This document shows positions 2,755-25,645 of a stretch of 64,000 bases of DNA, piece after piece. The DNA is taken from the NCBI RefSeq assembly GCF_022899355.1, contig NZ_JALJCK010000007.1, positions 186,001 through 250,000 of the forward strand, read 5' to 3'. The first letter of the stretch is position 1; the number at the start of each line of letters is the position of its first letter. The notes under the pieces were generated by a model. The model saw only the letters and a program-made list of their open reading frames with translations, had not been told where the DNA came from and did not search any database. This stretch comes from Shinella yambaruensis. GTDB lineage: Bacteria > Pseudomonadota > Alphaproteobacteria > Rhizobiales > Rhizobiaceae. The position numbers and the translations under genes are program-made.

Positions 2755-2873
2755 TCGCAGCGCGCGCCCACGCTCGAAGCCGATACCGAAATTTCATTCG
2801 CTGATCGCGTCCCCCGGTTGCCCGCCGAGTGGCCGGTACGAACACACACAACCAAGATCGTAGAGAGGCTCCA

Positions 2874-3743
2874 ATGAAGCATGGAATTTACTACTCTTAC
2901 TGGGAAAAAGAATGGAGCGCCAAGTTCGGCCCTTATGTCGAGAAGGTTGCGAGACTTGGTTTCGATATTATCGAGGTCGCTGCGCACCACATCAACGAGT
3001 ACAGCGATGCGGATCTCGCCATCATCAGGCAGACCGCAAAGGATAACAATATCATCCTCACGGCCGGGATCGGCCCTTCCAAGACGAGGAACCTGTCGTC
3101 ACCTGACAGTGCGGTGCGCCAGGCGGGCAGGGCATTCTTCGAGCAAACGCTCACAAACGTCGCCAAGCTCGATATCAAGACGATCGGTGGCGCGCTGCAT
3201 TCCTACTGGCCTGTCGACTATTCCAAGCCGGTCGACAAGGAGGGTGACCGTGCGCGTGGTGTCGAGGGGATCCATGACATTGCGGACTTCGCCAGCGATC
3301 TGGGCATCAACCTCTGCATCGAGGTGCTCAACCGCTTCGAGAACCACGTTGTCAACACCGCCGCTGAAGGGGTCGCCTTCGTGAAGGATGTCGGGAAGCC
3401 GAATGTCAAAGTCATGCTCGATACGTTCCACATGAACATCGAGGAAGATAGCTTTGGCGAGGCGATCCGTACCGCCGGCCCGCTGCTCGGTCATTTCCAC
3501 ACGGGGGAAAGCAATCGCCGTGTACCCGGTAAAGGCAGGATTCCCTGGCACGAGGTCGGTCTCGCCCTCCGCGATATCAAATACACCGGTGCTGTCGTCA
3601 TGGAGCCGTTCGTAAAGACCGGCGGAACCATCGGATCCGACATCAGGGTTTGGCGCGATCTCAGCGAAGGCGCAGACGAAGCGAAAATGGACGAGGACGC
3701 GAAAAACGCACTCGCATTCTCTCGCTTCGTGCTGGGAGGTTGA
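2874..3743 (+). CDS. D-psicose (D-allulose) 3-epimerase
   Basis: Sugar epimerase of the xylose-isomerase-like TIM-barrel family, 289 aa. It aligns by memory without gaps to the characterised Agrobacterium tumefaciens D-psicose 3-epimerase, sharing the start MKHGIYYSYW and the end ALAFSRFVLGG. The four metal/catalytic residues are in place: Glu in CIEVLNRFE (about 150), Asp in VMLDTFHMN (183), His in GHFHTGE (209) and Glu in VVMEPF (244). It should interconvert D-fructose and D-psicose, or D-tagatose and D-sorbose, at C3. The start follows AGAGAGG; an upstream in-frame start at 2829 lacks one. It sits between an SDR and a P-loop kinase in a likely rare-ketose catabolic operon. Confidence 0.93.
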   Translation: MKHGIYYSYWEKEWSAKFGPYVEKVARLGFDIIEVAAHHINEYSDADLAIIRQTAKDNNIILTAGIGPSKTRNLSSPDSAVRQAGRAFFEQTLTNVAKLDIKTIGGALHSYWPVDYSKPVDKEGDRARGVEGIHDIADFASDLGINLCIEVLNRFENHVVNTAAEGVAFVKDVGKPNVKVMLDTFHMNIEEDSFGEAIRTAGPLLGHFHTGESNRRVPGKGRIPWHEVGLALRDIKYTGAVVMEPFVKTGGTIGSDIRVWRDLSEGADEAKMDEDAKNALAFSRFVLGG

Positions 3744-6965: not shown

Positions 6966-7249
6966 GGCCGTGGCGAACGCGTCGAATTTCCTGCGGTGGT
7001 CGGGGACGTCGCTCTCGCCCCCAGTCGATCCACCTTCCTGGTGGTCTTCGTTGAACCAAGGCAGCCGGGAATGCCTGGCGAGACGAAGGCATGGCTGGCG
7101 GATTGTCGTAGCCGGCTCGGTATTCTCGGTCATTCGGTTTGGAGGAGGAGCCGCAGCCGTCGCGCACCGCTTTGCTGGCAAGGTCCATGTGATAGATTTC
7201 GTGCACGGGCCTGTGCCGCATGGGCACCGCTTCGCCCGGGAAAAGACGC
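6966..7249. other. Gene-free stretch between dctP remnant and moeA
   Basis: About 280 nt with no convincing gene on either strand and no recognisable TRAP permease remnant. Open frames cross it but have no family motifs. The moeA promoter should lie here. I saw no ModE-box-like palindrome in it. Confidence 0.5.
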
Positions 7250-8461
7250 ATGGAAAAAAGAACGCCGAAATCGCTCCGGGACGCCCTGGCGTTCATCGAG
7301 GCCTATATCGAAACCTCCATCCCGCCGGTTCGGATGGCCCTGTCTGCAGCGTTCGGCCATGTGCTGGCGGAAGATATCGTCGCGCCGGTCCCCCTGCCGC
7401 GCTTCGACAATGCCGCGATGGATGGCTTTGCCGTTTGTTCCGGCGACATCCGGCCGGACGGAACGGCAAACCTCAGGATCGGGCAGACGATCACGGCCGG
7501 CGAAAGGATCGTGCATGCGCTGCATCCGGGCGAGGCGGCGCGCATCATGACCGGCGCGCTTGTACCGCCCGGCGCCGACCGGGTTGTCGTGCAGGAGGCG
7601 ACGCAGGTGGAGGGCGATGCCGTTCACCTGCGGGCACAGGCCGGGGGAAAACCGCATATCCGCCGCGTCGGCGAAGACGTCTCGATGGGTGATGTCCTGC
7701 TGAAGGCCGGGACACGCATCGGCCCGGGCCAGCTTGCGCTCCTGACGGCGCTCGGCCTTGGCTCCGTGCTGGTCGTGCCGCGGCCGAAGGTGGCGCTGCT
7801 TTCCACCGGCAACGAGCTTGTCGCCAGCCCCGGATTTCTGGAGAACGGCCAGATATACGATACGAACCGGCCGATGCTGTCCCGGATGCTCCAGGCGGCC
7901 GGCGCGGAGGTCACGGATCTCGGCATTGCCGGGGACGATCCCGAAGCGATCCTCGCGCGGCTCGTCGAGGCCGCGAGCGGTCACGATCTCCTCATCTCGT
8001 CCGGCGGCGCCTCCGTCGGCTCCGCCGATCATCTGACGCAGATCGTTTCCCGTCGCGGCTTCCTCGAATTCTGGAAGCTCGACCTGCGGCCGGGCAAGCC
8101 GATCGGGTTTGGCGATATCGACGATTGCCCGATCCTGCTTCTTCCGGGAAGCCCGTTTGCCGCCGCTGTCGGATGCAACCTTATCGGCCGCGCGATTATC
8201 GCCTGCCTGGAAGGAAAGGCACCCGGGAGGAACACCTGGCGGCTTCCCGTCAGCCGGCCGGTCTCCAGATCGGGCAGCGGGACGCAGGTTCTTCCGGGGC
8301 GGCTTTGCCATGAGCCGGGCCATGCAACGGCGGTCGAACCGCTGCCGTATGAGGGCTCGGCCAGCCTTCGTGCTCTCGCGTTCGCGGATGTCATGCTTGT
8401 CCTTTCCCCAGAGCAAGGGAATATCGCGGCCGGCGAGCTTGTCGACGTCCTGCCGGTTTGA
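7250..8461 (+). CDS. moeA: Molybdopterin molybdenumtransferase (MoeA family)
   Basis: Protein of 403 aa, close to E. coli MoeA (411). It inserts molybdate into adenylylated molybdopterin in Moco synthesis. Family landmarks are PLPRFDNAAMDGFAV (residues about 48-62), GDVLLKAGTRI, VALLSTGNELV, QIYDTNRPML, SSGGASVGSADHL near residue 250 and LRPGKPIGFG followed by LLPGSPFAAAV. The last motif is more often LPGNPVS, so this may be a divergent paralogue or a tungsten-related MoeA. An in-frame upstream start at 7220 lacks a ribosome-binding site. It lies 103 nt upstream of the first binding-protein gene of a Mo/W-type transport locus and is on the same strand. Confidence 0.9.
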   Translation: MEKRTPKSLRDALAFIEAYIETSIPPVRMALSAAFGHVLAEDIVAPVPLPRFDNAAMDGFAVCSGDIRPDGTANLRIGQTITAGERIVHALHPGEAARIMTGALVPPGADRVVVQEATQVEGDAVHLRAQAGGKPHIRRVGEDVSMGDVLLKAGTRIGPGQLALLTALGLGSVLVVPRPKVALLSTGNELVASPGFLENGQIYDTNRPMLSRMLQAAGAEVTDLGIAGDDPEAILARLVEAASGHDLLISSGGASVGSADHLTQIVSRRGFLEFWKLDLRPGKPIGFGDIDDCPILLLPGSPFAAAVGCNLIGRAIIACLEGKAPGRNTWRLPVSRPVSRSGSGTQVLPGRLCHEPGHATAVEPLPYEGSASLRALAFADVMLVLSPEQGNIAAGELVDVLPV

Positions 8462-8528
8462 CGCCGGCATCCTTCCATAGCAGCGGACACGGGAATGGCG
8501 CGAATGTTGCCATGCCGTCGCAAACCAG

Positions 8529-8552
8529 CGATATGTTTGCTACAATATATCG
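8529..8552 (+). promoter_or_regulatory. Candidate ModE box (Mo-box) upstream of the first binding-protein gene
   Basis: A 24-bp imperfect palindrome with CGATATGT (8529-8536) and ATATATCG (8545-8552) around an 8-bp centre. Length and half-sites resemble ModE operators of E. coli and Rhodobacter (CG-N-TAT ... ATA-N-CG). It ends 12 bp before the ATG at 8565 and overlaps a possible -10 element TACAAT, so binding would repress. A related 24-bp palindrome stands at 11019. Confidence 0.65.
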
Positions 8553-8564
8553 TGGGAGAGAAAC

Positions 8565-9596
8565 ATGCCGGTTTTTCGTTGTGTTCTGGTCATCATTGCC
8601 CTGCTGGCGTCGTTCCTCCCCGCTATGGCGCGGACGATCACGGATGCCGCCGGGCGCATGGTCGAGATTCCGGACAAGGTGGAGCGGGTGCTCGCTGCCG
8701 GGCCGCCGGCCTCTGTTCTCGTCTATGTGCTGGCGCCGGACAAGCTTGCCGGCTGGGTGCGCGAGCCGAAGCCGGAGGAAAAGGCTTTCCTGCTGCCGTC
8801 CGTCCGCGACCTGCCGGTCTTCGGCCAGCTGACCGGCAAGGGCGGCACGGCCAATATCGAGGCGGTGCTGGCCGCAAAGCCCGACATCATCATCGATGTC
8901 GGCACGGTAAATCCCACCTATGCCTCGCTGGCCGACAAGGTGCAGGCACAGACCGGCATTCCCTATGTGCTCGTCGATGGTGCCTTTGCCAGGAGCGGCG
9001 CGATGCTGCGTGAAACCGGCGCCATGCTCGGCGTCGAGGCGCGGGCCGAAACGCTTGCCGCCTATGCTGACGAGAAATTCGCTGCGTTGGAAAAAGGCCT
9101 TGCCAATATTCCCACGGAAAAGCGGCCCTCGGTTTATTATGGCCGCGGCGGAGAAGGTTTGGAAACGGGCCTTGCCGGCTCGATCAACATGGAGCTGCTC
9201 GAAGCGGTCGGCGCGCGGAACGTCGCGGCCGCGGCGGGCAAGGGCGGCCTGACGCAGGTCTCGCTCGAACAGATCCTGTCCTGGAAGCCGGATACCATCC
9301 TTGCCGCCTCGCCGAAATTCGCCGAGGCGGTGAAGGATGATCCGCTCTGGGCGCAACTCGATGCCGTCAAGGCAGGCCGCGTCCATGTCACGCCGAGCCT
9401 GCCGTTCGGCTGGATCGATTCTCCGCCCGGCATCAACCGCCTGGTCGGCGTTTCCTGGCTGGAGCACACGCTCTATCCGGAAACGGTGCCGACTGCGCTC
9501 GATGAAGAGGTCCGGACTTTCTTCAAGCTGTTCTACCAGGTCGAGCTCAGCGACGCGCAGCTTGCAACCCTGCTCGGCAAGGGCGCGGCGAAGTAG
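8565..9596 (+). CDS. B12/siderophore-type ABC substrate-binding protein, probable molybdate/tungstate uptake (MolA-like, first copy)
   Basis: Periplasmic binding protein of 343 aa in the BtuF/FhuD/MolA fold group. A signal peptide of about 22 residues ends at PAMA, followed by the family start RTITDAAGRMVEIPDKVERV. Two lobes follow, with LEQILSWKPDTILAASP and DAVKAGRVHVTPSLPFGWID in the second. GGGAGAG precedes the ATG. The next gene, a permease, starts directly after its stop. The substrate assignment rests on neighbours (moeA, mop, ModA-like protein) and on an upstream ModE-box-like palindrome; sequence alone would also allow an iron chelate. Confidence 0.85.
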   Translation: MPVFRCVLVIIALLASFLPAMARTITDAAGRMVEIPDKVERVLAAGPPASVLVYVLAPDKLAGWVREPKPEEKAFLLPSVRDLPVFGQLTGKGGTANIEAVLAAKPDIIIDVGTVNPTYASLADKVQAQTGIPYVLVDGAFARSGAMLRETGAMLGVEARAETLAAYADEKFAALEKGLANIPTEKRPSVYYGRGGEGLETGLAGSINMELLEAVGARNVAAAAGKGGLTQVSLEQILSWKPDTILAASPKFAEAVKDDPLWAQLDAVKAGRVHVTPSLPFGWIDSPPGINRLVGVSWLEHTLYPETVPTALDEEVRTFFKLFYQVELSDAQLATLLGKGAAK

Positions 9597-10613
9597 ATGC
9601 GGCCATCCGCCGCCCTGACCGGTCGGCTCGCCGCAGTCGGCCTTCTGGGGCTTGGCATGCTGGCCCTCGCCTCCATGATGGTCGGCAAATATGGCGGCGG
9701 GTTGCAGCCGCTGCTGATCGCCCTGCGGCAGCTGGTGACGGGTGAGACGACGGACCCGCTGCTCGCCACCGTGCTATGGAACGTGCGCCTGCCGCGCGTC
9801 CTCGCCGCCATCGTCGTCGGGGCAGGGCTTGCGGCGGCGGGGGCGACCTACCAGGGCTTGTTCCGCAATCCGCTCGTCTCGCCCGACCTGCTCGGCGTGT
9901 CGGTCGGCGCCAGCCTCGGGGCGGTGCTCGGCATCTTTCTTTCGCTGCCGGTGTTCGCCATCCAGCTCGCCGCCTTTGCCGGCGGGCTTCTCGCGGTGCT
10001 GGTCGTCACGATCATCGGCGCGCTGGTGCGCGAGCGCGATCCCGTGTTGACGCTGGTGCTTGCCGGCATCGCCATCCAGGCGCTGATTGGCGCGGGCATC
10101 TCGCTGATCAAGGTGCTTGCCGATCCCTATGATCAGCTGCCCGCCATCACCTACTGGCTGCTCGGCAGCATGACGGCGATCACCCGCTTCGACGTGCTCT
10201 CCATCCTGCCGGCCGTCATACTCGGTCTCGTGCCGCTTGTGCTTCTGCGCTGGCGCATGAACATCCTGACGCTTGGTGACGAGGAGGCGAAGACGCTGGG
10301 CGTCGATACGCTGAAGACTCGCATCGTGCTGATCGCCGGCGCGACGCTGGTGACGGCGGCGACCGTTTCCGTGACGGGTATCGTCGGCTGGATCGGCCTT
10401 GTCATTCCCCATATCGCTCGGATGCTCGTCGGCCCGGATTTCCGCCGCCTGCTGCCCGCCGCCATGATGCTGGGCGCGGCCTATCTCATCGTCGTCGACA
10501 TGCTGGCGCGCTCCATCGCCGACATCGAAGTGCCGCTCGGCATCCTCACCGCCACGGTCGGCGCGCCCTTCTTCCTGTGGCTGCTGATCGCCGGAAAGCG
10601 AGGCTGGTCGTGA
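9597..10613 (+). CDS. FecCD/BtuC-type ABC permease (MolB-like, first copy)
   Basis: Inner-membrane permease of 338 aa with many hydrophobic helices, as expected for the roughly ten-helix FecCD family. It contains VRLPRVLAAIVVGAGLAAAG, FRNPLVSPDLLGVSVGASLG and the ATPase-contact region GIVGWIGLVIPHIARMLVGP. Its ATG follows the stop of the binding-protein gene with no gap, so translation is probably coupled. No ATPase gene follows it; the only one in the locus is at 13177. It resembles the second permease at 12153 throughout, so the two SBP-permease pairs probably arose by duplication or parallel recruitment. Confidence 0.88.
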   Translation: MRPSAALTGRLAAVGLLGLGMLALASMMVGKYGGGLQPLLIALRQLVTGETTDPLLATVLWNVRLPRVLAAIVVGAGLAAAGATYQGLFRNPLVSPDLLGVSVGASLGAVLGIFLSLPVFAIQLAAFAGGLLAVLVVTIIGALVRERDPVLTLVLAGIAIQALIGAGISLIKVLADPYDQLPAITYWLLGSMTAITRFDVLSILPAVILGLVPLVLLRWRMNILTLGDEEAKTLGVDTLKTRIVLIAGATLVTAATVSVTGIVGWIGLVIPHIARMLVGPDFRRLLPAAMMLGAAYLIVVDMLARSIADIEVPLGILTATVGAPFFLWLLIAGKRGWS

Positions 10614-10666
10614 CGCGACCCTTCCCGCGCTCCATGTCGCGGCAAGCGGGATCCAAGGGATGGGTC

Positions 10667-10876
10667 TCAGTCGACCGCGACCATCACGTCGGATGCCTTG
10701 ACGACTGCATAGGCTTCGCCGCCGACGGCAAGGCCCAGTTCGTCCACGGATTCATTTGTGATCGATGCGGTGACGATGGCGCCGCCGGCGACTTCGATGC
10801 GGACATGCGCGGTGGTCGCGCCCTTGGTCACTTCGACGATCTTGCCCTTGAGACGATTGCGCGCGCTGATCTTCAT
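10667..10876 (-). CDS. mop: Molbindin, Mop domain molybdate/tungstate-binding protein
   Basis: Single-domain TOBE/Mop protein of 69 aa starting MKISARNRLKGKIVEVTKGA and containing the family core ITNESVDELGL and YAVVKASDVM. Such molbindins form hexamers that bind several molybdate or tungstate ions in the cytoplasm and act as stores. The start follows GGGAGAG on the minus strand; an upstream frame extension is not needed. It is transcribed away from the second binding-protein gene at 11098, with a ModE-box-like palindrome between them that could control both. This small gene is the strongest single indication that the surrounding B12-type transporters handle molybdate or tungstate. Confidence 0.93.
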   Translation of the reverse strand: MKISARNRLKGKIVEVTKGATTAHVRIEVAGGAIVTASITNESVDELGLAVGGEAYAVVKASDVMVAVD

Positions 10877-11018
10877 GGAACTCTCCCGTATTGGCCTATG
10901 CAAAGGCACCGCCATAGCACATCAGCCCGCCTGGCGACTACCGTTCGAACCGGGAGAACAGTTCCGGCTTCGAAGGCATGTTCGGCAAGCCCGAGCAGCC
11001 TATCATCGCGCCATATGG

Positions 11019-11042
11019 CGTAATATTCTTTTAAATATAACG
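11019..11042 (+). promoter_or_regulatory. Candidate ModE box (Mo-box) between mop and the second binding-protein gene
   Basis: A 24-bp imperfect palindrome with CGTAATAT (11019-11026) and ATATAACG (11035-11042) around an 8-bp centre. It has the same length and outer CG pairs as the palindrome at 8529. It is 56 bp upstream of the ATG at 11098 and 143 bp upstream of mop on the other strand. Confidence 0.68.
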
Positions 11043-11097
11043 TTGTTGCCAGCCGGGGATACCTGCTATCCCTGAACCGTAAAGGGAGAACCCATCC

Positions 11098-12156
11098 ATG
11101 CTCGCACGCCTTGCCTCCGCCTCGAAGACCGCGCTCGCCATAGCCGGCCTGCTGCTCGCCACGCCCGCCTGGGCGGACCGGACGATAACCGACCAGATCG
11201 GCCGCGAGGTCCATGTGCCCGACCAGGTGAACCGCGTCGTCATCCTGCAGCATCAGACGCTCAACATCGCCGTGCAGCTCGATGCCATGGACAAGGTGGT
11301 CGGCGTGCTCGACGAATGGAAGAAGCAGCTCGGCGCGAAATATGTGCGACTGGCCCCGAAGCTCCCGGAACTCGCCATGCCCGGCGGCCTGACCAGGGTG
11401 AACATCGAGGAGCTGTTGACGCTGAAGCCGGACGTGGTGTTCGTCACCAACTATGCGCCGGCCGACATGGTCAAGCAGATCGAGGATGCCGGGCTTGCGG
11501 TCGTCGCCATCTCGCTGCTCGACGTGCCGCCGGAAGAGGCCGTCAAGATGAATCCGGCCGTCAAGGATGAGCCGGCGGCGATCGATGCCGGATTTGCGGC
11601 CGGCGTGCGGCTGATCGCCGACATCCTCGATCGCAAGGATCAGGGGGAAGCGATGATCGCTGTCACCAAGAAGAGCCGCGCACTCGTTGCCGAGCGCCTT
11701 GCCGACATTCCCGAGGACAAGCGCGTTCCCGTCTACATGGCCAATCCTGATCTCTCGACCTATGGCCGCGGCAAATATACCGGCTTGATGATGGAGCGTG
11801 CCGGTGCCCGCAACGTCGCCAACGAGATCGCCGGCTTCAAGCAGGTGACGATGGAGGACGTCCTCAAATGGAACCCCTCCATCATCTTCGTGCAGGAGCG
11901 TTATCCGGCCGTGGTCGACGAGATCAGGACGACGGCATCCTGGCAGACGATCGATGCCGTGAGGAACGGCCGCATCTCCCTGATGCCGGAATATGCCAAG
12001 GCCTGGGGCTATCCGATGCCGGAAGCCATGGCGCTCGGCGAACTCTGGATGGCGAAGGAGCTTTATCCCGAGCGTTTTGCGGATATCGACATGCAGAAGG
12101 AGGCGGATTCCTACTACAAGGAATTCTACCGCACCGACTACCGCGCCGGGCAATGA
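11098..12156 (+). CDS. B12/siderophore-type ABC substrate-binding protein, probable molybdate/tungstate uptake (MolA-like, second copy)
   Basis: Binding protein of 352 aa. A signal peptide of about 26 residues ends at TPAWA, then DRTITDQIGREVHVPDQVNRV. It shares the fold and the RTITD opening with the protein at 8565, but the two differ widely inside, so they may bind different ligands or different forms. The second lobe has VTMEDVLKWNPSIIFVQERY and the C-terminus an unusually acidic helix. AAAGGGAGAA precedes the ATG. The next permease gene starts inside its stop codon (ATGA). The ModE-box-like palindrome lies upstream. Confidence 0.86.
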   Translation: MLARLASASKTALAIAGLLLATPAWADRTITDQIGREVHVPDQVNRVVILQHQTLNIAVQLDAMDKVVGVLDEWKKQLGAKYVRLAPKLPELAMPGGLTRVNIEELLTLKPDVVFVTNYAPADMVKQIEDAGLAVVAISLLDVPPEEAVKMNPAVKDEPAAIDAGFAAGVRLIADILDRKDQGEAMIAVTKKSRALVAERLADIPEDKRVPVYMANPDLSTYGRGKYTGLMMERAGARNVANEIAGFKQVTMEDVLKWNPSIIFVQERYPAVVDEIRTTASWQTIDAVRNGRISLMPEYAKAWGYPMPEAMALGELWMAKELYPERFADIDMQKEADSYYKEFYRTDYRAGQ

Positions 12157-13187
12157 GCGGTGAGGATGCCGCGCAGCGGCCGGCCCGGGCGACGGTGGCC
12201 CTCCTCACGATCGCGCTGGCGGTTACCGCCATCGCCGCGCTCGGTATCGGCCGCTACGACATTCCTTTTGCGCGTGTGATCGCCATTCTGCTGGCGCCCG
12301 TCAGTCCGCCGGAGATTGCGGTCACGCCGATGGAGGCGAATGTCGTCTTCACGGTGCGGCTGCCGCGCATTCTTCTGGCCGTGCTGGCGGGGGCAGGGCT
12401 CGCCCTGTCCGGGGCGGCGCTGCAGGGTGTGTTCCGCAATCCGCTGGTCGGGCCGCAGGTGGTCGGCGTCTCCTCGGGTGCGGCCTTCGGCGGCACGCTC
12501 GCCATCCTGCTCAGCCTTCCGCGCTATGGGCTTCTTGCGTCCGCCTTCGCGTTCGGATTGTCGGCCCTCGTGCTTGTCTATGCCCTGAACGGCATCGTCG
12601 CACGCCGCAACATACTTGCGCTGGTCCTCGCCGGGGTCGTCGTCACCGGCTTCTTCGGGGCGCTGGTGAGCCTCCTGCAATATCTCGCCGACACCGAAGA
12701 CAAGCTTCCCGCCATGGTGTTCTGGCTGCTCGGCAGCTTCGCCACCGGGAACTGGGACAAGTTCGTTCTCGTCGCCGCGCCGGTGCTTGCCGGCAGCCTG
12801 CTGCTCATTGGCCTGCGCTGGCGCATCAACCTTCTGTCGATGGGCGACGAAGACGCCCGGACTCTCGGCGTTCGTGTCGAGCCGCTACGCTGGCTGGTGC
12901 TCGTGCTCGTTTCGTGCATCGTCGCCGCGCAAGTCGCGGTCAGCGGGATCGTCGGCTGGGTCGGGCTCGTCGTGCCGCATATGGCGCGTCTGCTGGTCGG
13001 GCCGGATCATCGCGTGATGATGCCGGCCTCGCTGATCATCGGCGCGCTCTACCTGCTGGTCATCGACACGGTCGCCCGCACGGCGACGTCAACGGAGATA
13101 CCGCTCGGCATTCTCACGGCGCTGATCGGCACACCGGTCTTCGCGTTGGTCTTGCGGCAGACCCAGCGAGGCACGAATGGCTTCTGA
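12153..13187 (+). CDS. FecCD/BtuC-type ABC permease (MolB-like, second copy)
   Basis: Permease of 344 aa with about ten predicted membrane helices. The conserved VRLPRILLAVLAGAGLALSG, FRNPLVGPQVVGVSSGAAFG and GIVGWVGLVVPHMARLLVGP match the first-copy permease segment by segment. It begins at an ATGA overlap with the binding protein and ends 11 nt inside the ATPase gene, so the three genes are tightly coupled. It should form the membrane dimer that docks the ATPase at 13177. Confidence 0.9.
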   Translation: MSGEDAAQRPARATVALLTIALAVTAIAALGIGRYDIPFARVIAILLAPVSPPEIAVTPMEANVVFTVRLPRILLAVLAGAGLALSGAALQGVFRNPLVGPQVVGVSSGAAFGGTLAILLSLPRYGLLASAFAFGLSALVLVYALNGIVARRNILALVLAGVVVTGFFGALVSLLQYLADTEDKLPAMVFWLLGSFATGNWDKFVLVAAPVLAGSLLLIGLRWRINLLSMGDEDARTLGVRVEPLRWLVLVLVSCIVAAQVAVSGIVGWVGLVVPHMARLLVGPDHRVMMPASLIIGALYLLVIDTVARTATSTEIPLGILTALIGTPVFALVLRQTQRGTNGF

Positions 13188-13968
13188 TCGCATCAGGCTC
13201 CGCCTTAGCAAGGCGGGCCATTCCTATGACGGCGAACGCTGGCAGTTCCGCGCGCTCGATCTCGATCTCGGCGCCGGCGAGATCACCGCCATCCTCGGCC
13301 CGAACGGCCGCGGCAAATCCACCCTGCTGCGCGTGCTCGCCGGTCTGTTGAAGCCGGCCTCCGGTGTCGTCGAAAGCAATCCGCGAACCGGTTTCGTGCC
13401 GCAGGAATTTTCCGGCTCCTTTCCCTATTCCGTGCTGGATATCGTGCTGATGGGCCGGGCACGGCACATCGCGCTGTTCGGCACGCCGGGCGTGATCGAC
13501 GTCGAGAAGGCGATGGCGGCGCTGGAGGCCACCGGCATGGCCGACTATGCCGCACGCAGCATCGGCTCTCTCTCCGGCGGCGAGCGCCAGCTGGTGCTGA
13601 TCGCCCGGGCGCTTGCCGGCGAGAACGACGTCTTGCTGCTGGACGAGCCGGCTTCCGCGCTCGACCTGAAGAACCAGGACATCGTGCTCTCCCTGCTCGG
13701 CAGGCTGGCCGACAGCCAGAAACTGGCGATCGCCTTCACCACGCACCAGCCGAACCATGCCTCGGCGATTGCGGACAAGGTTCTCCTGATGCTTCCCGAT
13801 ACGCAGACCTTGTTCGGCCCGACGGGGGCCGTGATGATGGAATCGAGCCTTGAAGCGCTCTATGGCGTTCCGGTTCGCGCTGTGCGTCTGGATGGCGCCG
13901 CCGGACAGGAGAGCGCCTTCGTGCCGCTGTTCCGCCGACGGATGCGCGAGGGAGATCCCCATGCGTGA
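13177..13968 (+). CDS. ABC transporter ATPase, MolC-like
   Basis: ATPase of 263 aa. Walker A GPNGRGKST is at residues 41-49, the Q-loop lies in FVPQEFSGSFPYSV, the signature is SLSGGERQ near 131, and Walker B is VLLLDEPAS followed by ALDLKNQDIVLSLL. The segments MGRARHI, SALDLKNQDIVLSLL and FTTHQPN resemble, from memory, Haemophilus influenzae MolC (HI1470) more than FecE or BtuD. That is the ATPase of a B12-type molybdate/tungstate importer. It is the only ATPase for two permease genes in the locus, so it may serve both. Its last 8 nt overlap the ModA-like gene. Confidence 0.88.
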   Translation: MASDRIRLRLSKAGHSYDGERWQFRALDLDLGAGEITAILGPNGRGKSTLLRVLAGLLKPASGVVESNPRTGFVPQEFSGSFPYSVLDIVLMGRARHIALFGTPGVIDVEKAMAALEATGMADYAARSIGSLSGGERQLVLIARALAGENDVLLLDEPASALDLKNQDIVLSLLGRLADSQKLAIAFTTHQPNHASAIADKVLLMLPDTQTLFGPTGAVMMESSLEALYGVPVRAVRLDGAAGQESAFVPLFRRRMREGDPHA

Positions 13969-14737
13969 TAGGGTCCGTGTCCTCGCCGCCGGCAGCCTGC
14001 GGCACGCCTTGCCCGAAATCGCTGCCGCCTTCGAGAAAGCCGGCGGGGCCGCGGTTTCCATCTCGCTTGGCCCGGCCGGGCTGCTGCGCGAGCGGATCGA
14101 GGCCGGTGAGCCGTTCGATCTTTTCGCCTCCGCCAACATGGCCCATCCGCAGCGCCTCGTTTCGATCGGATTGGCGAAGGACGCCCTCTGCTTTGCCCGA
14201 AACAGCCTCGCCATCATCGCGCGCGCCGATCTCGGGCTGACGACGGAGAATGTCGCCGACGTGCTGTCGAACCCTTCGATCCGCATCGGCACCTCGACGC
14301 CGGGCGACGATCCGTCCGGAGACTATGCGTTTGAGATGTTCGATCGCCTGGAGGCCGATCGCCCCGGGCTCGGCAACGCCCTGAAATCCCGCGCCCTGCA
14401 ACTGGTCGGCGGGCGCAATTCTCAACCCGGGCTTAGCGCGAGCGGCCTGATCGCAGATGGCGTCGTCGATCTTTTCCTGAGCTACGCCTCCAATGCGCGC
14501 CTGCACGCGAAAGACCCGGCGCTCACCGTTGTGCAACTGCCGGCCCGCCTTTCCCCGAGCATTTCATATGGCGTCGCGGTCCGGACCGCTGCCGGGCAGA
14601 GCGCCACGCTGCTCAAGGACTTTCTGCTGACGGAGCGTGCGGCGTCAATCCTGGTCGCCAACGGCTTTCTTCCAGAAAGCGGCGACCCGCTTGCCATCGG
14701 CAATGATGGCGCCCATCATCAGCCCATGCGCTCGTAG
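13961..14737 (+). CDS. ModA-like substrate-binding protein without a signal peptide
   Basis: Protein of 258 aa whose start MRDRVRVLAAGSLRHALPEI corresponds to the first strand of mature ModA-type molybdate-binding proteins. LRERIEAGEPFDLFASANM and a later hinge region follow the same fold. The ATG has GGGAG 7 nt upstream and overlaps the MolC-like gene by 8 nt. No export signal precedes the first strand, so it should be cytoplasmic. An in-frame TTG at 13850 would add a poor, arginine-interrupted hydrophobic stretch read out of frame from molC codons; I consider that unlikely. Possible roles are an intracellular Mo/W buffer or sensor (inference). The oxyanion-contact serine after AAG is retained. 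Confidence 0.8.
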   Translation: MRDRVRVLAAGSLRHALPEIAAAFEKAGGAAVSISLGPAGLLRERIEAGEPFDLFASANMAHPQRLVSIGLAKDALCFARNSLAIIARADLGLTTENVADVLSNPSIRIGTSTPGDDPSGDYAFEMFDRLEADRPGLGNALKSRALQLVGGRNSQPGLSASGLIADGVVDLFLSYASNARLHAKDPALTVVQLPARLSPSISYGVAVRTAAGQSATLLKDFLLTERAASILVANGFLPESGDPLAIGNDGAHHQPMRS

Positions 14738-15466: not shown

Positions 15467-16675
15467 ATGACCAACCCTTATCTCCCGAACACGCTTGAAA
15501 CGCACGGCCAGCCTCTCACCTCGCAGGATGCCGGGACGCTTTCTCCCGAGGCCGCCGACCGCGTCGCGAAGGTCCTGGCGCTGCGCGAAAACAGCGCGGC
15601 GACGCCGCTGCGCGCGCTGCCGGGGCTCGCCGGCGAACTGGGACTGACGTCGCTTCACCTCAAGGATGAAGGGTTCCGGCTCGGGCTCGGCAGCTTCAAG
15701 GCGCTTGGTGGCGCCTATGCCCTGATGATCCTCGTGCAGGAGGAGGCGAGCCGCCGCCTGGGCCGCGCCGTCAAGGTGGAGGAGCTGTTGTCTGCCGAGG
15801 TGCGCGCGGTCGCCGAAAGCATGACCTTCGCCTGTGCCACCGACGGCAACCACGGCCGCTCCGTGGCGCAGGGCGCGCAACTGATGGGCGCGCGCGCCGT
15901 CATCTTCGTCCATGCCGGCGTCAGCGAGGGGCGGATAGAGGCGATCGCACGGTTTGGCGCGGAGATGGTCCGCGTCACCGGAAACTATGACGATTCCGTC
16001 GCCGAGGCCGCGCGTGTTTCCACCGAGCGCGGCTGGACGGTTCTTTCCGATACGTCCTGGCCCGGCTACGAGCATATTCCGGGCCTCGTGGCACAGGGCT
16101 ACACCGCCATGGTCCGCGAGATCCTCGCCGTACTGGAAGAACCGCCGACCCACGTCTTCCTCCAGGCCGGCGTCGGTGGCTTCGCCGCCGCGGTCGCAGG
16201 CCACCTGGCGATGGTGCTGGGCGACCGGCGGCCGCATGTGACGGTGGTTGAGCCTGCCCGCGCAGCCTGCCTCTATGAAAGCGCCAAGCAGGGCAGGCCC
16301 GTGAAGGTCGATGAATCGCAATCGACGGTCATGGCCATGCTCGAATGCTACGAGCCGTCGCTGGTGGCCTTCCGCATCCTCGAACGCGTGGCAGACGGCT
16401 TCATGACGGTGGACGAGGATATCGCCGTTGAGGTCATGCGCCGGCTTGCCAATCCCCTGGCTGGCGATCCCGCGGTGGTCGCGGGCGAAAGCGGCGGCGC
16501 CGGTCTCGCCGGCCTCCTTACCGTCCTGAAGGACCCTGGTGCGGCCGCCGCTATCGGGCTTGGCCCCGAGGCACGAGCCCTGGTGATCAACACCGAAGGC
16601 GCGACGGACCCTGCGCTTTACCGGGAGATCGTCGGCAAGGACCCGGAGACGGTGCTGAAGGAGAACGCGGCATGA
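15467..16675 (+). CDS. dpaL: Diaminopropionate ammonia-lyase
   Basis: PLP enzyme of fold type II, 402 aa. The Schiff-base lysine is K78 in LGSFKALGGAYA, matching Lys77 of the E. coli enzyme. TDGNHGRSVA carries an active-site Asp near 125, and AGVGGFAAAVAGH is the phosphate/glycine loop. It converts D- or L-2,3-diaminopropionate to pyruvate and two ammonia, and relatives also act on D-serine. The ATG at 15467 follows GGAGCG; the earlier in-frame start at 15440 lacks a site. The next gene, an M20 hydrolase, overlaps by ATGA, and dtd follows the same way, forming a compact operon opposite an Lrp regulator. Confidence 0.93.
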   Translation: MTNPYLPNTLETHGQPLTSQDAGTLSPEAADRVAKVLALRENSAATPLRALPGLAGELGLTSLHLKDEGFRLGLGSFKALGGAYALMILVQEEASRRLGRAVKVEELLSAEVRAVAESMTFACATDGNHGRSVAQGAQLMGARAVIFVHAGVSEGRIEAIARFGAEMVRVTGNYDDSVAEAARVSTERGWTVLSDTSWPGYEHIPGLVAQGYTAMVREILAVLEEPPTHVFLQAGVGGFAAAVAGHLAMVLGDRRPHVTVVEPARAACLYESAKQGRPVKVDESQSTVMAMLECYEPSLVAFRILERVADGFMTVDEDIAVEVMRRLANPLAGDPAVVAGESGGAGLAGLLTVLKDPGAAAAIGLGPEARALVINTEGATDPALYREIVGKDPETVLKENAA

Positions 16676-17859
16676 CCATGGCAATCGATGCTGCCCACAT
16701 GCACGATCTCACCCGGCGCATGGTGGCGCTTCGCCATGACCTGCATCGTCATCCCGAGCTCGGTTTCCAGGAGCACCGCACGAAGGCAACGGTCGCCGCG
16801 TTCCTGCGCGATCTCGGCATTGAGGTTCACGAGGGCGCCGGTGTGGTCGGCGTGCTGAAAGCTGGAACCGGCGGCCGGGTGATCGGCCTGCGCGCCGACA
16901 TGGACGCGCTTCCGATCCAGGAAACCGGCAGCCACGACCACCTGTCGACGACTGTCGGCGTCATGCATGCCTGCGGCCATGACGGCCACACCACCATGTT
17001 GTTGGCCGCGGCCGAGATCCTTGCCCGCAACCCCGATTTCGTCGGCACGGTCGTCTTCCTCTTCCAGCCGAATGAAGAGCATGGCCTCGGTGCGCAGGCG
17101 ATGATCGACGAGGGCGTGCTGTCGCGTTTTTCGATCGAGGAGGTCTACGGTATCCACAATCTTCCCGGCGCTCCGGTCGGTCAGCTTTCCACGCGTATCG
17201 GGCAGATCTGCACGAGCGAGACCCTGTTCGAAATCAAAATCGATGGCCAGGGCGGTCACGCGTCGATGCCGCATGTCGGCGTCGATACCATTACGGTTGG
17301 CTCGGAAATGGTGCTTGCCCTGCAAACCATCGTGGCGCGAAAGCTTCCGCCCGGAGCCGGCGTTGTTGTTTCTGTCACGGAGTTCCTGACAGACGGTCAG
17401 CGAAACGTGCTTCCCGGTCATGCGACGTTGAAAGGGGACATGCGGGCGCGTACGCCCGAGGACAGGCAGGCCGCGGTCGGCTTCATGCAGCAGATCGTCG
17501 ATGGCGTCGCCGCCACGCACAAGGTCTCGGCATCCTTGACATGCAAGACGGAATTCATCGAGACGATCAATGCGCCGGAGCCCGTCGAAGCTGTCGTCCG
17601 CGCCGGCAGGGCGGTTGGACTGGAGGTCGTCCCCGATCGGCCGCCGATGAGTTTCTCGGAGGACTTCGCCCACTTTTGCGCGGCCGTACCCGGTTGCTTT
17701 CTTCTTCTCGGAAATGGAGAAACGGGTGCGCACGGCCGGCCGCTTCATGCGTCCGACTACGATTTCAACGATGCTCTCCTATCTCTCGGTGCGCGGTTTT
17801 GGGTAGAGCTTGTCCGCGACCGTCTCGGAGCCGATAAGAGCAGGAAACCATTCCCATGA
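16672..17859 (+). CDS. M20 family amidohydrolase / aminoacylase
   Basis: Zinc-dependent hydrolase of 395 aa in the hippurate hydrolase/N-acyl amino acid amidohydrolase group. Metal-ligand motifs are [11 protein letters not shown] (from residue 99), [11 protein letters not shown], and the dimerisation-domain insert beginning [12 protein letters not shown]. It should release an amino acid from an N-acyl derivative. It overlaps dpaL at ATGA and ends in ATGA with dtd. An N-acylated diaminopropionate or serine is a likely substrate from context. A second ATG at 16678 is a possible start. A different M20 protein is encoded at 46518. Confidence 0.9.
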
Positions 17860-18299: not shown

Positions 18300-18547
18300 T
18301 GGATGTGCGGATCATCGATCATCCGGAGGGGCGCGACGAATTTCAGCATATGGCGTTTTCACCCGGCGCCGGGAATGGCCGGTCTTGCGACTGGTTCCGC
18401 GCCGGACCGGAATTGATTGCCTTCAAAAAACATTGAGCGCCCGAGAGTCCCAAATCGACAAACCCGATCGTCAAAGCCAATGAGCGGGTGTGTTCCGCTC
18501 CTGTGATGGACTGCGGCGCCTTGAACGCCGTATGGATTGGGGGTTTC

Positions 18548-20968
18548 ATGAATATGAGTTTTTCCGTCAGGGCGATGCTCTCGGCCGGGGCTGCCGCGCT
18601 CGTGCTCGGCGCGCCGGCGCCGGCAAATGCGCAGGCACCGGCGCAATCGCACTCCGCAGCGCGATCCATCAGCGTGCCGGCGGGCCTGCTCACGCCGGCG
18701 CTGAACAGCCTTGCCGCGCAGACCGGCCTCCAGATTTTCTACGACGCATCCCTGGCAAACGGAAAATCGACGGGCGGGGCGCGCGGCAACCTGACGCCGG
18801 AGCAGGCGCTGACCGCGATGCTGGCCGGCACGGGGTTGGACGCCCGGTTTGCCGGAAGCAACCAGGTGACGCTGAGCTTGGACCCGGCGGGAACCGACGT
18901 CACGACGGGTGCGGTGGAGGAGGGCGCGACGCTTCTGGAAGCAATCACGCTTTACGGCGCGCGCGAGGCAACGGCGCTCAACGACACGACCGCAAGCGTC
19001 GGCATCGTCAATGCCGAGGCAATCCGGGATGGCCAGATCCGGCACACGCAGGATGTCTATCGCCGCCTTGCCAACGTGCTGGACAGCGCAACGGTCAATT
19101 CCGGCTTCGTCATCCGCGGCATGAGCTCGGAAGGCTTCGTTCCAGGCGGCGCGCCTGTCGGCTCGCTTTACGTGGATGGCATTCTCCAGACCCGCTACAA
19201 TGCGCGCTTCGGCGCAAGAAACCTCTGGGACGTCGAGCAGGTCGAGGTGTATCGCGGCCCGCAGTCAACGCTTTCCGGCCGCGCCGCCATGTCGGGAGCG
19301 GTCTATATCAAGTCGAAGGACCCGACTTTCGACAAGGAAGTGGAGCTTTCCAGCACGGTCGGCAGCAACGATCTCGTTGGGGGCGCCTTCGTCATGAACA
19401 CGCCGCTGGTGGAGGATCAGATTGCGTTGCGCATCGCCGGTGCGTTCGAACGCTCGCGGTCCGATGTCAGCTATTCGAATTTCAAGCACTATGCCGGCTA
19501 TGACGATCTGACCACGGATATCAGCGGCACCATACGGGCCAAGGTGCTCATCACGCCGTCCGAGATGCCGGAGACCCGTGCGGTCGTGACCTATTCCTAC
19601 TCGAAGGATCGCCCGAACGATCGCCTGGTTGGCCTCTACAATGGGCGCGGCGACTTCAACAACAATCCCGATACTTATACGGAATATCGCTGGACCGAGG
19701 TCCACAATCTCGGCCTTGAAGTGACGCACGACTTTTCCGATGCGCTTCGTTTCACCTCGCAGACCGGCTACCAGTACGGCATCAACAACCGGCGCTCTGT
19801 GGACGGCGACACGCCCGGTTATGTAACCGGCATCTGGGGCACGGATAACGATTGGATCGCCACCCAGGAATTCCGCCTGAACTACGAGGAGGGCCGCTGG
19901 AAATGGGTTGCCGGCGTCTTCGGGAGCCATCAGGTCTTCGACGGCTCGTCGCGCTTCATCGCCGAGCCTTATCCCGATTTCATGCCGGGCACGATTTATC
20001 AGGTCGATGACGATCAGCGGCGTACCACCACGAACCTCGCGGTGTTTGGCGAAGCGACCTATGAGTTCGCACCCACATGGTTTGCGACTGCCGGCGGACG
20101 CCTGGATTACCTCAGGGAAAAGAACACGGAGCTGAACTCGATGGTCCTCTACGGCATGGACCCGGTGTGGTCGCCGCCGAATGGCACGTCGTCCTTCACC
20201 GAAATCAATTTCGTGCCGAAACTCGGCCTGGTGAAAGAGTTCGGCGACAATCACAAGGTTGGCGTCACCTATTCGCAGGGCTTCCGCTCGGGCGGTTCCT
20301 ATGTCAACCGCAGCCAGGCCCCGGTCTACACGATCGATACCTACGATCCGGAATATTCGCAGAGCTATGAGCTGTCCTACAAGGGGATGCTGCTGGATGA
20401 CCGGCTCACGCTGAATGCCAACCTCTTCTACACGAAGTACACGGATCAGCAGGTTGAAATCCGGCCGCGGTCGGACGTGCCCGGCTACCGCGTGACGGAA
20501 AACGCCGCATCCTCCCGCGCCTGGGGTTTCGAGATCGAGCCGAGCTATCAGGTCACCGACCAGTTCTCGGCCTTCGCGTCGATCGGCTATCTCAACACCA
20601 AGTTCCTGGAATGGAACCACGCCGGTGTCGGGGATCAGGCTGGAAAGGCCTTCCCCGAAGCGCCGGAATGGACCGTGGGTTTCGGTGGCCGATATGAGTT
20701 CGAGAACGGCGTCTATGTCGGAGCGGATGCCAAATACACCACGGACTACAATTCCCGGTTCGGCACGAAAGGCATGTACAAGATCGATTCTCGTTTCCTC
20801 GTGAACGCGCAGGCCGGGTTCAAGAAGGACAACTGGGAGATCACCGCCTTTGCGGAAAACCTCACCGACGAGAAATACTTCACCATCGTCGATCCGGATG
20901 CCGCTTTGGCCTTTGGCCAGGCCGGCGCGCGCCGGTCGTTCGGGCTGAATCTCCGCGCCAAGTTCTGA
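18548..20968 (+). CDS. TonB-dependent receptor with N-terminal STN signalling domain
   Basis: Outer-membrane receptor of 806 aa. A signal peptide ends near PANAQ, and an STN (secretin/TonB N-terminal) domain covers about residues 38-110 (ISVPAGLLTPALNSLAAQTG ... LAGTGLDARF). A TonB-box-like EAITLYGA is near 136. The plug domain has VEQVEVYRGPQSTLSGRAAM, and the protein ends in a terminal aromatic-type strand, RRSFGLNLRAKF. The STN domain means it can signal to the FecR-like protein encoded at 25646. A full B12/siderophore-type ABC importer follows, so a ferric siderophore is the likeliest cargo. The start at 18548 follows TGGGGG; 18554 is an alternative. Confidence 0.93.
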   Translation: MNMSFSVRAMLSAGAAALVLGAPAPANAQAPAQSHSAARSISVPAGLLTPALNSLAAQTGLQIFYDASLANGKSTGGARGNLTPEQALTAMLAGTGLDARFAGSNQVTLSLDPAGTDVTTGAVEEGATLLEAITLYGAREATALNDTTASVGIVNAEAIRDGQIRHTQDVYRRLANVLDSATVNSGFVIRGMSSEGFVPGGAPVGSLYVDGILQTRYNARFGARNLWDVEQVEVYRGPQSTLSGRAAMSGAVYIKSKDPTFDKEVELSSTVGSNDLVGGAFVMNTPLVEDQIALRIAGAFERSRSDVSYSNFKHYAGYDDLTTDISGTIRAKVLITPSEMPETRAVVTYSYSKDRPNDRLVGLYNGRGDFNNNPDTYTEYRWTEVHNLGLEVTHDFSDALRFTSQTGYQYGINNRRSVDGDTPGYVTGIWGTDNDWIATQEFRLNYEEGRWKWVAGVFGSHQVFDGSSRFIAEPYPDFMPGTIYQVDDDQRRTTTNLAVFGEATYEFAPTWFATAGGRLDYLREKNTELNSMVLYGMDPVWSPPNGTSSFTEINFVPKLGLVKEFGDNHKVGVTYSQGFRSGGSYVNRSQAPVYTIDTYDPEYSQSYELSYKGMLLDDRLTLNANLFYTKYTDQQVEIRPRSDVPGYRVTENAASSRAWGFEIEPSYQVTDQFSAFASIGYLNTKFLEWNHAGVGDQAGKAFPEAPEWTVGFGGRYEFENGVYVGADAKYTTDYNSRFGTKGMYKIDSRFLVNAQAGFKKDNWEITAFAENLTDEKYFTIVDPDAALAFGQAGARRSFGLNLRAKF

Positions 20969-21021
20969 AATCCGGTTGCGGGGCGTAAGCCCCGCGATCT
21001 CACCGCCCGCATTCGTCTGAA

Positions 21022-21957
21022 ATGGTGTTCGTCTTGCGCTTCTGCCTGACCGTCATGTTTCTTCTCGCCTCCCTCTCTCTGGCAAGCGCCGCCTGCCAGG
21101 GAAGGGAAATAACGGAAGGCGTCTACAATCCGCCGCTCTGTGTTCCGCTGGAAGCAAAGCGGATCGTGACGCTCGATCCGCTGCTGACGCTCGGCCTTCT
21201 CATCGAGCTCAAGGCGCCCGTTGTCGCCACCCCTTACATGGCCATCCAGGACGAGCAGGTGCTGGATGTCGTCAAGCAGGCAAACATGGTGGACCTGGGC
21301 AATCCGCGCGAGCCCAGCCTAGAGCGTGTCGCGGCCCTCAAACCCGACCTCATCATCGGCAGCACGGAGGGGCATGCCGCGATTTACGGGACGGTGTCGA
21401 AGATCGCGCCGACGGTGCTCCTCGATCATACGGACTGGAAGCAATATCGCCAGCGCGTCGCGGAAATCACCGGCCGCGAAAGGATGGCTGACGAGGCGCT
21501 TGCGGGCTATGAAAAGCGGGTTGCCGCGATCCGCGAGCGCATGAAGGACAGGGATATCACCGTGTCCGCCGTCCGCTTCGCGCCGGGCCGGTTTGTCGTT
21601 TTCCTCGATGGTCCTGCCGCCTACGCGCCCTTCGCGGTCCTGCACGAGGCAGGCGTGAAGCGGACGGCCTATGAAACGGTGACGGACGGGACGATCGTCA
21701 AGCGGCCGGATTGGGAGGAACTCGCCAATCTCGACGGCGACGTTCTTCTCTATGTATCCGCCAGCGGCTTTGAAAGCGGTCCGGACGATGCGCTCGAGAA
21801 GGAGGTGACCGGCAACCCGCTCTGGCAGCTCCTGCCCGCTGTGCGGAACGGCCGGGCCCACCGGGTCGACCGGGCAGCCTGGCAGAGCTTTCATGGCATC
21901 GCCTCCGCACACCGCATTCTTGACGACGTCGAGCGCTACATCCTGGCGGATCGATGA
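21022..21957 (+). CDS. Siderophore-type ABC substrate-binding protein (FecB/FhuD-like)
   Basis: Periplasmic protein of 311 aa with a signal peptide of about 23 residues (hydrophobic core VMFLLASLSLASA). The TroA/FhuD-like fold is indicated by the opening EAKRIVTLDPLLTLGLL, then VAALKPDLIIGSTEGH, and AVRNGRAHRVDRAAWQ near the end. It sits 53 nt behind the TonB receptor and overlaps the first permease gene at ATGA. It should take the ligand from the receptor to the permeases at 21954 and 22997. Confidence 0.9.
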   Translation: MVFVLRFCLTVMFLLASLSLASAACQGREITEGVYNPPLCVPLEAKRIVTLDPLLTLGLLIELKAPVVATPYMAIQDEQVLDVVKQANMVDLGNPREPSLERVAALKPDLIIGSTEGHAAIYGTVSKIAPTVLLDHTDWKQYRQRVAEITGRERMADEALAGYEKRVAAIRERMKDRDITVSAVRFAPGRFVVFLDGPAAYAPFAVLHEAGVKRTAYETVTDGTIVKRPDWEELANLDGDVLLYVSASGFESGPDDALEKEVTGNPLWQLLPAVRNGRAHRVDRAAWQSFHGIASAHRILDDVERYILADR

Positions 21958-23000
21958 ATCGCCGCGCCGGCATGGATATCGCTCGGCATCGTGGTCGCGT
22001 GGCGCATGACGGAAGCAGGCTTCTGGGCCTGTTCCTGCTTCTCTGTCTGCTTGTCGCGGCTGCATCGTGGTCGGTCGCGATGGGCGCGACACGCATCCCG
22101 CTCCCGACGATATGGGCAGCGGTTGTCGACCTCGATGGATCGCGCGAACACCTGCTGGTCATGACGATCCGTCTGCCGCGCGTGCTTGCGGCCGTGCTCG
22201 CGGGCAGCGCGCTTGCCGTCTCCGGGGCCATCATGCAGGCGGTGACGAACAATCCTCTCGCCTCGCCGGGATTGCTCGGCATCAATGCCGGCGCGGCCTT
22301 TGCCGTCGTGCTGGTCATGACGCTCTTTGGAGCAGGCGTCGGGGACATCTACATGTGGTTCGCCTTCGCCGGTGCCGGCGCGGCCGCGCTGCTCGTCTAT
22401 GCAATGGGGTCCTTCGGGCCGGCAGGTCATTCGACAATTGGGCTCGTCATCGCCGGCGCCGTCGTCGCAACCTTCCTGACGGCACTCACGAGTGCCGTGC
22501 TCATCTTCGACCAGAACACGCTGGACGCCGTTCGCCTTTGGACAGCAGGGTCCGTCTCCGGCCGCACGATGGCGCAAAACGCCGGAGTAGCGCCCTATAT
22601 TGTGGCGGGGCTTGCCGTCGGTCTTCTCCTCGGGCGGCATCTTGTCACCTTGAGCCTGGGGGCGGAGGCGGCGCGCTCGCTGGGGCAGAACCCGGCGGTC
22701 TGGCGGGCGATCTCCATCGGCGTCGTCATCCTGCTGGCCGGCAGCGCCGTGTCTCTCGCCGGTCCCATCGGTTTTGTCGGGCTGGTCGTTCCCCATATCG
22801 CGCGGCTGACGATCGGCGTCGATTATCGCTGGATCGTGCCCTTCAGCGCGGTCGGGGGCGCCCTGCTTGTCGTCGTCGCCGATCTCGCCGGGCGCATGAT
22901 CTTCGGCAGCCAGGATTTTCCCGTGGGCGTGACGACCGCCTTGATCGGCGCACCGTTCTTCCTCTGGCTGGCGCGCAGCCGGGCAGGGAGCGCGACATGA
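21954..23000 (+). CDS. FecCD-type iron(III)-siderophore ABC permease, subunit 1
   Basis: Permease of 348 aa with about ten membrane helices. Landmarks are IRLPRVLAAVLAGSALAVSG, NNPLASPGLLGINAGAAFAV and GPIGFVGLVVPHIARLTIGV. It overlaps the binding-protein gene upstream and the second permease downstream, each by ATGA. Two distinct permeases plus one ATPase indicate a heterodimeric channel, as in FecC-FecD. Confidence 0.92.
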   Translation: MNRRAGMDIARHRGRVAHDGSRLLGLFLLLCLLVAAASWSVAMGATRIPLPTIWAAVVDLDGSREHLLVMTIRLPRVLAAVLAGSALAVSGAIMQAVTNNPLASPGLLGINAGAAFAVVLVMTLFGAGVGDIYMWFAFAGAGAAALLVYAMGSFGPAGHSTIGLVIAGAVVATFLTALTSAVLIFDQNTLDAVRLWTAGSVSGRTMAQNAGVAPYIVAGLAVGLLLGRHLVTLSLGAEAARSLGQNPAVWRAISIGVVILLAGSAVSLAGPIGFVGLVVPHIARLTIGVDYRWIVPFSAVGGALLVVVADLAGRMIFGSQDFPVGVTTALIGAPFFLWLARSRAGSAT

Positions 23001-24767: not shown

Positions 24768-25035
24768 GCTTGGAGGTGTTGCGGGAATGTCACGGTGCTC
24801 GGTTTTCCGGGCAGGCGCCGAAAGCCGGCGGTTCGACGGGCAAAAGGATTCTGGTAACGAAATCAGGGATAAAGATGAGTTTTTTTGTCTTGATTTAACC
24901 GGATAGCTTTCCGAATTCTAACCTATTGCACTTGCAGGCATTTTACGGAATCGGTAGCCCTTCTCTCTGAAGGTCCGGAATGTGCTTTGCGTGGCCGACG
25001 CAGGCTTTCGTCATGCGACTGGGAACAGGGTGCTG

Positions 25036-25584: not shown

Positions 25585-25645
25585 GAGTCCCGAACGGGCG
25601 ATGCCAATCGTCTACAAGGCAGGACCGAGGCTCCGGGAGAAGTCG

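Follow-up and report, generated by a model that had tools for sequence, protein, structure and literature searches.

A probable molybdenum-scavenging island of Shinella yambaruensis pairs a MolABC importer with a second binding protein and permease devoid of a cognate ATPase

Introduction

Can importers built from the same domain families as FecBCDE and BtuCDF be dedicated to molybdenum (Mo) or tungsten (W)? The question is raised by a gene island at 7220-14737 of the 64-kb stretch of Shinella yambaruensis DNA analysed here (contig NZ_JALJCK010000007.1, positions 186,001 to 250,000, hereafter the window). The original prediction, made from the letters alone, had listed there moeA, two binding protein-permease pairs, one MolC-like ATPase, the molbindin gene mop and a leaderless ModA-like protein, and had proposed a dedicated Mo or W island differing from ModABC. 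All of these genes were found, each with an open frame within the interval, and the proposal gained support at the sequence level from the MolABC match, from ModE-type boxes on both transport operons and from a separate modABC elsewhere in the genome. New with respect to that first reading are the missing cognate ATPase of one pair (BP1-perm1), the ModE-type boxes themselves, and the wider, partly Mo-linked family to which this pair belongs. At a probability of roughly three in four, we read the locus as a plasmid-borne island scavenging Mo, possibly also W, in which a ModE-governed MolABC and BP1-perm1, the latter running on MolC, would import the metal, Mop and the ModA-like protein would hold it, and MoeA would use it. 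The features of the island are as follows.

7220..8461 (start may be 7250), plus strand: moeA/glp, among the genome's three MoeA_N proteins
8529..8552: ModE-type box 1, 13/16 to CGNTATATA-N6-TATATANCG, directly upstream of BP1
8565..9596, plus strand: BP1, binding protein with a leader-like N-terminus (by eye), of a family separate from MolA, nearest solved structure 4pag
9597..10613, plus strand: perm1, permease of the FecCD type that partners BP1, without a cognate ATPase gene
10667..10915 (likely 10667-10876), minus strand: mop, molbindin (Mop/TOBE)
11019..11042: ModE-type box 2, 13/16, upstream of molA
11098..12156, plus strand: molA, binding protein, ortholog of the molybdate/tungstate-binding HI1472
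12153..13187, plus strand: molB, permease, best Protein Data Bank (PDB) match HI1471
13177..13968, plus strand: molC, ATPase, best PDB match HI1470
13961..14737, plus strand: ModA-like protein, leaderless, presumably cytoplasmic

Results

MolABC is joined by a distinct type II pair

The Pfam domains comprised PF03453/PF00994/PF03454 in MoeA, Peripla_BP_2 in the two binding proteins, FecCD in the two permeases and one ABC ATPase. Among PDB sequences, MolA matched Haemophilus influenzae HI1472 with an E-value of 5e-128 over residues 27-349, the next sequence following at 3e-30, and MolB and MolC had their best matches in HI1471 (1e-104) and HI1470 (1e-62), respectively. By homology, 11098-13968 is thus a genuine MolABC, i.e. 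a type II importer of molybdate/tungstate. In H. influenzae, MolA binds both anions, and molB is repressed by molybdate via a factor that the authors call unknown (PMC4031551). The likeness to HI1470-HI1472 lies in the three same proteins, whereas the Shinella set is followed by the leaderless ModA-like gene, stands with another binding protein-permease pair, and has a ModE-type box ahead. One genome of the same family carries MolABC with the leaderless ModA-like gene in two copies (L127 and L128; L and C numbers are our own handles for loci and contigs), each with a 12/16 box ahead of molA and with no BP1 nearby.

Comparison of the two binding proteins with MolA gave a divided answer, namely that the second is a true MolA and the first belongs to a separate family. 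BP1 matched best 4pag, a structure of unknown ligand (8e-46), ahead of HI1472 (7.5e-19), and it does not qualify as a MolA ortholog, since HI1472 is the weaker match and the BP1 family usually has another ATPase; the nearest PDB sequence to perm1 was HI1471 (6e-62). By these comparisons BP1-perm1 is a distinct type II family and not a MolA duplicate.

The window is part of a 384-kb contig, C32, and its segment 7200-14760 is 98.3% identical to pcSHIWSC3, a circular plasmid of 388,751 bp from Shinella sp. WSC3-e, in which the island genes are annotated as Glp, 'iron ABC transporter' and molybdopterin-binding protein; in total, two Shinella plasmid records carry the island at this identity. The match points to a Shinella plasmid, or one very closely related, as the source. 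When sought in other genomes, the same gene set recurred in three Shinella loci (L121-L123, L121 without moeA), and this recurrence together with the two plasmid records argues that the set is not a chance assembly.

ModE-type boxes precede both transport operons

Boxes were scored on the 16 positions of the E. coli ModE consensus CGNTATATA-N6-TATATANCG, as published for ModE of this type (PMC545781; PMC2700814). The sites at 8529-8552 and 11019-11042 were the two best matches in the window (each 13/16), and none of 100 Markov-1 simulated windows contained a match of 13 or more. A matrix trained on sites from the genome's own modA and nap and from upstream of BP1 at seven non-Shinella loci ranked the same two boxes first (32.4 and 26.9 bits versus a simulated maximum of 17.7). 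A relaxed pattern occurred at 13 places in the genome versus 1 in the backward control; its four exact matches lay at modA, at molA and inside two predicted frames, and with one mismatch it also occurred at BP1, at a TrmO-like gene that neighbours a second mop, and at a nap-type operon. Among the remaining places, C32:43461 lies by Nudix and LysR-like frames, and most of the other seven are inside predicted frames.

Outside this genome, a box preceded BP1 in all 14 loci L042-L055 (12 to 14 of 16), and one preceded molA on Rhizobium leguminosarum pRLG202 (13/16) and in L127-L129 (12, 12 and 14 of 16), with no molA box in L130 and L131. A gene for a ModE N-domain adjoins modABC at C30:359938 (2.4e-25; 91 bits, short of the curated 98.5), and a canonical ModB is kept at C30:361335 (222.6 bits, cut-off 182.6), so the island comes in addition to ModABC; the island is itself no ModABC, as its permeases are all FecCD and the ModA-like protein has no ModB-type partner there. 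Putative ModE binding to the boxes is inferred, as is the direction of regulation.

The nap-type operon (C4:159838-164500, L134) consists of a ModE box, a Pfam-confirmed ferredoxin gene and then NapD- and NapA-like frames read by eye, and its box suggests that periplasmic nitrate reductase is controlled by Mo. A frame for a FecB-looking binding protein lies upstream of it, one gene further.

BP1-perm1 is without a cognate ATPase where MolABC adjoins in Shinella

The order search covered 297 genomes, 37 of which, own genome included, had BP1 relatives (E up to 1e-30), and the wider flanks of 35 of the 36 others (G211 left out) formed the order sample. An own ATPase stood beside BP1 and its permease in 32 of these 35 loci; two of the exceptions were cut by contig ends (L069, L092) and the third had no such permease in view (L067). 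The same held beside perm1 in 8/8 named Rhizobiaceae loci. Within Shinella, BP1 was present in 7 of 21 genomes of the genus, own included: the four loci with MolABC adjoining (the window and L121-L123) have no cognate ATPase, and the three with MolABC not adjoining (L124-L126) have one, 69-72% identical to the L047 copy. Querying the own genome with the L124 ATPase returned no match above 42% identity, MolC being among those at 42%.

Despite this absence, perm1 is under purifying selection, its dN/dS being 0.13-0.19 over three comparisons, with 0.11-0.14 for BP1 and 0.11-0.12 for molB; four Shinella genomes retain BP1, perm1 and the ModE box together (window, L042/L121, L045/L122, L043/L123). 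At L044:8681-13140, from a Hyphomicrobiales metagenome-assembled genome (MAG), only short remnants of MolABC are left and perm1 carries a frameshift, with BP1, moeA and mop remaining; this fits a dependence on MolC, in a single draft MAG where an assembly error is possible. In the coupling helix, the residue that follows 'G[DE]EEA' is Lys/Arg in 4/4 ATPase-less Shinella perm1 proteins and in 1/11 of those from Rhizobiaceae with an own ATPase, the other 10 having Gln. Lys/Arg matches the Arg of MolB, but Arg is common outside Rhizobiaceae, which makes the residue only a hint.

The BP1 family is partly linked to Mo genes and has an E. coli relative

Within 9 kb of BP1 in the order sample, mop was found in 19 loci, a ModA-like gene in 9, tupA in 8 and a TrmO-like gene in 9, and at least one of mop, ModA-like and tupA in 21/35. 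Dividing TrmO_N (PF01980) matches into short and long by profile end (≤111 versus ≥113, a split chosen after the list was seen), 20 of the 59 short-type matches lay at most 1 kb from mop or BP1, versus 1 of the 91 long-type ones. Short TrmO-like proteins by Mo genes occur in L047-L050, L052-L054, L056, L057, L064, L068, L072, L077, L080, L082 and L091, and the one TrmO_N protein found in the own genome (C2:230837-231660, i.e. L135:2838-3661) has a ModE box ahead and mop beside it. Neither a ModE-regulated BP1-type importer nor a Mo-linked TrmO-like protein was named in the titles and abstract openings of the best literature matches (at most 20 per search), a set with subscription papers mostly outside it.

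A search of plasmids gave 43 records with BP1 relatives; where these name the matching gene, they mostly call it an iron transporter. The search found E. coli proteins sharing 35-36% identity with BP1. Their operon-like run starts with the binding protein and goes on with a permease, an ATPase, a class I methyltransferase, ModD and a TonB receptor (L176:4908-10972; L180:7001-13427). A relative also exists in Proteus mirabilis, on a record that has no gene table at that place. In ATCC 11775 the identities are 36% to BP1, 55% to perm1 and 42% to the family's own ATPase. Of 5426 complete E. coli genomes, 2093 contained at least 80% of a five-gene query reaching from the binding protein to ModD, and the receptor was present in both E. 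coli records examined (n=2). The run is preceded by a 15/16 ModE box ending 24 bp before the start codon, and its binding protein is annotated as iron transport. ATCC 11775 has five sites with no more than one mismatch, and besides the one before this run they lie near moaA, dmsA, ynfE and yghW/hybO; moaA, dmsA and ynfE belong to molybdenum-cofactor synthesis or molybdenum enzymes. Allowing up to two mismatches gave 8 places, the backward control giving 4. The run is matched, on its gene order and ymgE-ycgR flank rather than on sequence, to the prrA-modD-yc73-fepC cluster (CFT073; O157:H7 S-loop 83), which was proposed for iron uptake (PMC1890555).

Mop, the ModA-like protein and MoeA

Mop scored 86.1 bits with TIGR00638 (cut-off 55) and probably starts at 10876, giving 69 aa as annotated in the near-identical plasmid. 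The ModA-like protein passed NF002918 (296 bits, cut-off 288) and TIGR01256 (76.3 bits, cut-off 62.5); read from 13961, it has no signal peptide ahead of its conserved 'AAGSL' start, the upstream frame being read by eye. It is likewise leaderless, by eye, in L121-L123, L127 and L128, and apparently so in L065 and L129-L131, where the upstream frames are too short, while relatives in L060-L063, L066 and L069-L071 have N-termini that look leader-like by eye. A cytoplasmic buffer or delivery protein is the simplest guess for its role. As for MoeA, the C11 copy among the genome's three was counted from the MoeA_N genome search alone, and on a Rhizobium plasmid a Glp gene near BP1 has a 12/16 box.

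Other features of the window

A Fec-type set at 18488-26596 comprises an STN-domain TonB receptor, a binding protein, a permease, a FecE-like ATPase, an ECF sigma factor and FecR. As a candidate part of the island this cluster was rejected: permease, ATPase, receptor, sigma factor and FecR are all its own, and its best ModE-like match reaches 11/16. Farther off, 2829-3743 encodes a D-psicose 3-epimerase family protein (449.5 bits, cut-off 300), and ARAGORN called a minus-strand tRNA-Arg(cct) at 16863-16959, probably falsely, inside the frame 16672-17859 that is an amidohydrolase in the near-identical plasmid.

Discussion

In the mechanism that we propose, low cytoplasmic molybdate would make ModE leave the two boxes, so that both operons would be expressed. 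One would yield MolABC, the type II molybdate/tungstate importer; the other would yield BP1-perm1, which appears to have lost its own ATPase and would most likely dock on MolC, and one motor could then serve two binding specificities or affinities. Mop, and probably also the leaderless ModA-like protein, would then hold the imported oxyanion, and MoeA would use it. What the ModA-like protein does and which ligand BP1 binds are presumed parts of this scheme.

Several observations weigh against this reading. The AlphaFold2 model of BP1 (mean pLDDT 78.5, 12 sequences) was by Foldseek nearest to 4pag, with MolA sixth amid binders of unknown ligand and of iron chelates. The fold is thus ambiguous on the ligand, so that the assignment of BP1 rests on regulation and gene neighbours; a clustering of both binding proteins with iron or cobalamin binders, which would have told against a Mo or W role, does not hold for MolA and is ambiguous by fold for BP1. 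The nearest curated names for these families are those of iron or B12 systems, all below cut-off. Regarding the boxes, two of the four exact relaxed-pattern matches, those within predicted frames, look like chance; no ModE box precedes moeA in the window; and within 450 bp before BP1 in the order sample, boxes were found only in L055 (13/16) and, weakly, in L086 (12/16). Fourteen of the 35 order-sample loci have none of mop, ModA-like and tupA within 9 kb of BP1 (L068, L087 and L092 on contigs shorter than 9 kb). Moreover, a single event may lie behind all four loci without the ATPase: the tree gives one change, at a support of only 68/44 that does not tell one loss from several. That both permeases share MolC, albeit probable, is reached by indirect evidence.

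Among the other explanations, it is unlikely that the island serves tungstate rather than molybdate and feeds a W enzyme via the local MoeA. The eight tupA neighbours of BP1 relatives and the binding of both anions by H. influenzae MolA speak for it, as does a W-specific MoeA with linked tupABC reported from Methylorubrum (PMC13197769); against it, the boxes are common to modABC and to nap, a molybdoenzyme operon. The window MoeA itself keeps PGK instead of the PGR of the W-type enzyme, yet another pocket position is seemingly Ala as in the W type, and these mixed residues leave a tungsten-specific MoeA undecided.

Quite improbable is that MolABC takes molybdate while BP1-perm1, standing there by chance, takes an iron(III) complex or cobalamin and borrows an iron-type ATPase from elsewhere in the genome. 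Public annotation calls BP1 an 'iron ABC transporter substrate-binding protein', several Foldseek neighbours are iron binders, and further ABC ATPases are numerous in the genome, the FecE-like one in the window among them. This is opposed by the ModE box directly before BP1 and in 14/14 of the L042-L055 loci, by the mop, ModA-like and TupABC neighbours of part of the BP1 relatives, and by the separate location of the Fec-type set, which has a sigma factor to itself. In addition, the curated cut-offs of the iron models were reached neither by BP1 (39.6 bits versus 374) nor by MolA (42.7 versus 320), nor that of the BtuF model by BP1 (29.2 versus 234), and an Rfam scan of the window gave no family at the gathering threshold, hence no cobalamin riboswitch. 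On the cut-offs, the riboswitch search and the boxes, an iron or B12 role of the island was set aside, iron-type regulatory sites lying outside the scan. The likeness to FecBCDE and BtuCDF goes as far as the domain families, the island being without a TonB receptor, a sigma/anti-sigma pair or a cobalamin riboswitch.

That BP1-perm1 is a relic drifting since the loss of its ATPase would agree with the lack of a cognate ATPase in the genome and with the frameshifted perm1 of L044 beside MolABC remnants, but is hardly probable given the low dN/dS of perm1 and BP1 and their retention with the box in four Shinella genomes.

Regarding a Mo-scavenging island, two further systems invite comparison. 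In Azotobacter, an ABC transporter with a TonB receptor, 'potentially for molybdate', stands in a Mo cluster beside modG, modE/G and modABC (PMC4465626), alike by description only. Rhodobacter capsulatus MorABC is a second transporter, Mo-repressed through MopA/MopB, whose deletion is reportedly without effect on an in vivo measure; as it is described as similar to ModABC (PMC6925177), it is probably of type I, unlike the island.

A broader reading, tentative and on balance doubtful, is that BP1-type systems form an import route for Mo or W on an organic ligand, often ModE-controlled, with entry by the TonB receptor in E. coli, a SAM-dependent enzyme freeing the metal, and the Shinella pair running on the MolC motor. 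The ligand-acting enzyme would be the class I methyltransferase in E. coli and the TrmO-like protein in rhizobia; the E. coli cluster adds the SAM methyltransferase, ModD and the TonB receptor, which the Shinella island is without. If true, a large group of 'iron' transporters would be misnamed, including the one in 2093/5426 E. coli genomes.

For the biology of these importers, the regulatory signature moves a family often annotated as iron transport toward Mo/W, and makes ModE a candidate for the molybdate control of molABC, whose regulator was called unknown in H. influenzae. The island offers a natural case of two type II importers appearing to share one ATPase, and the linkage of Mo-regulated uptake to SAM-dependent enzymes and to a TonB receptor would bear on the uptake of chelated molybdenum.

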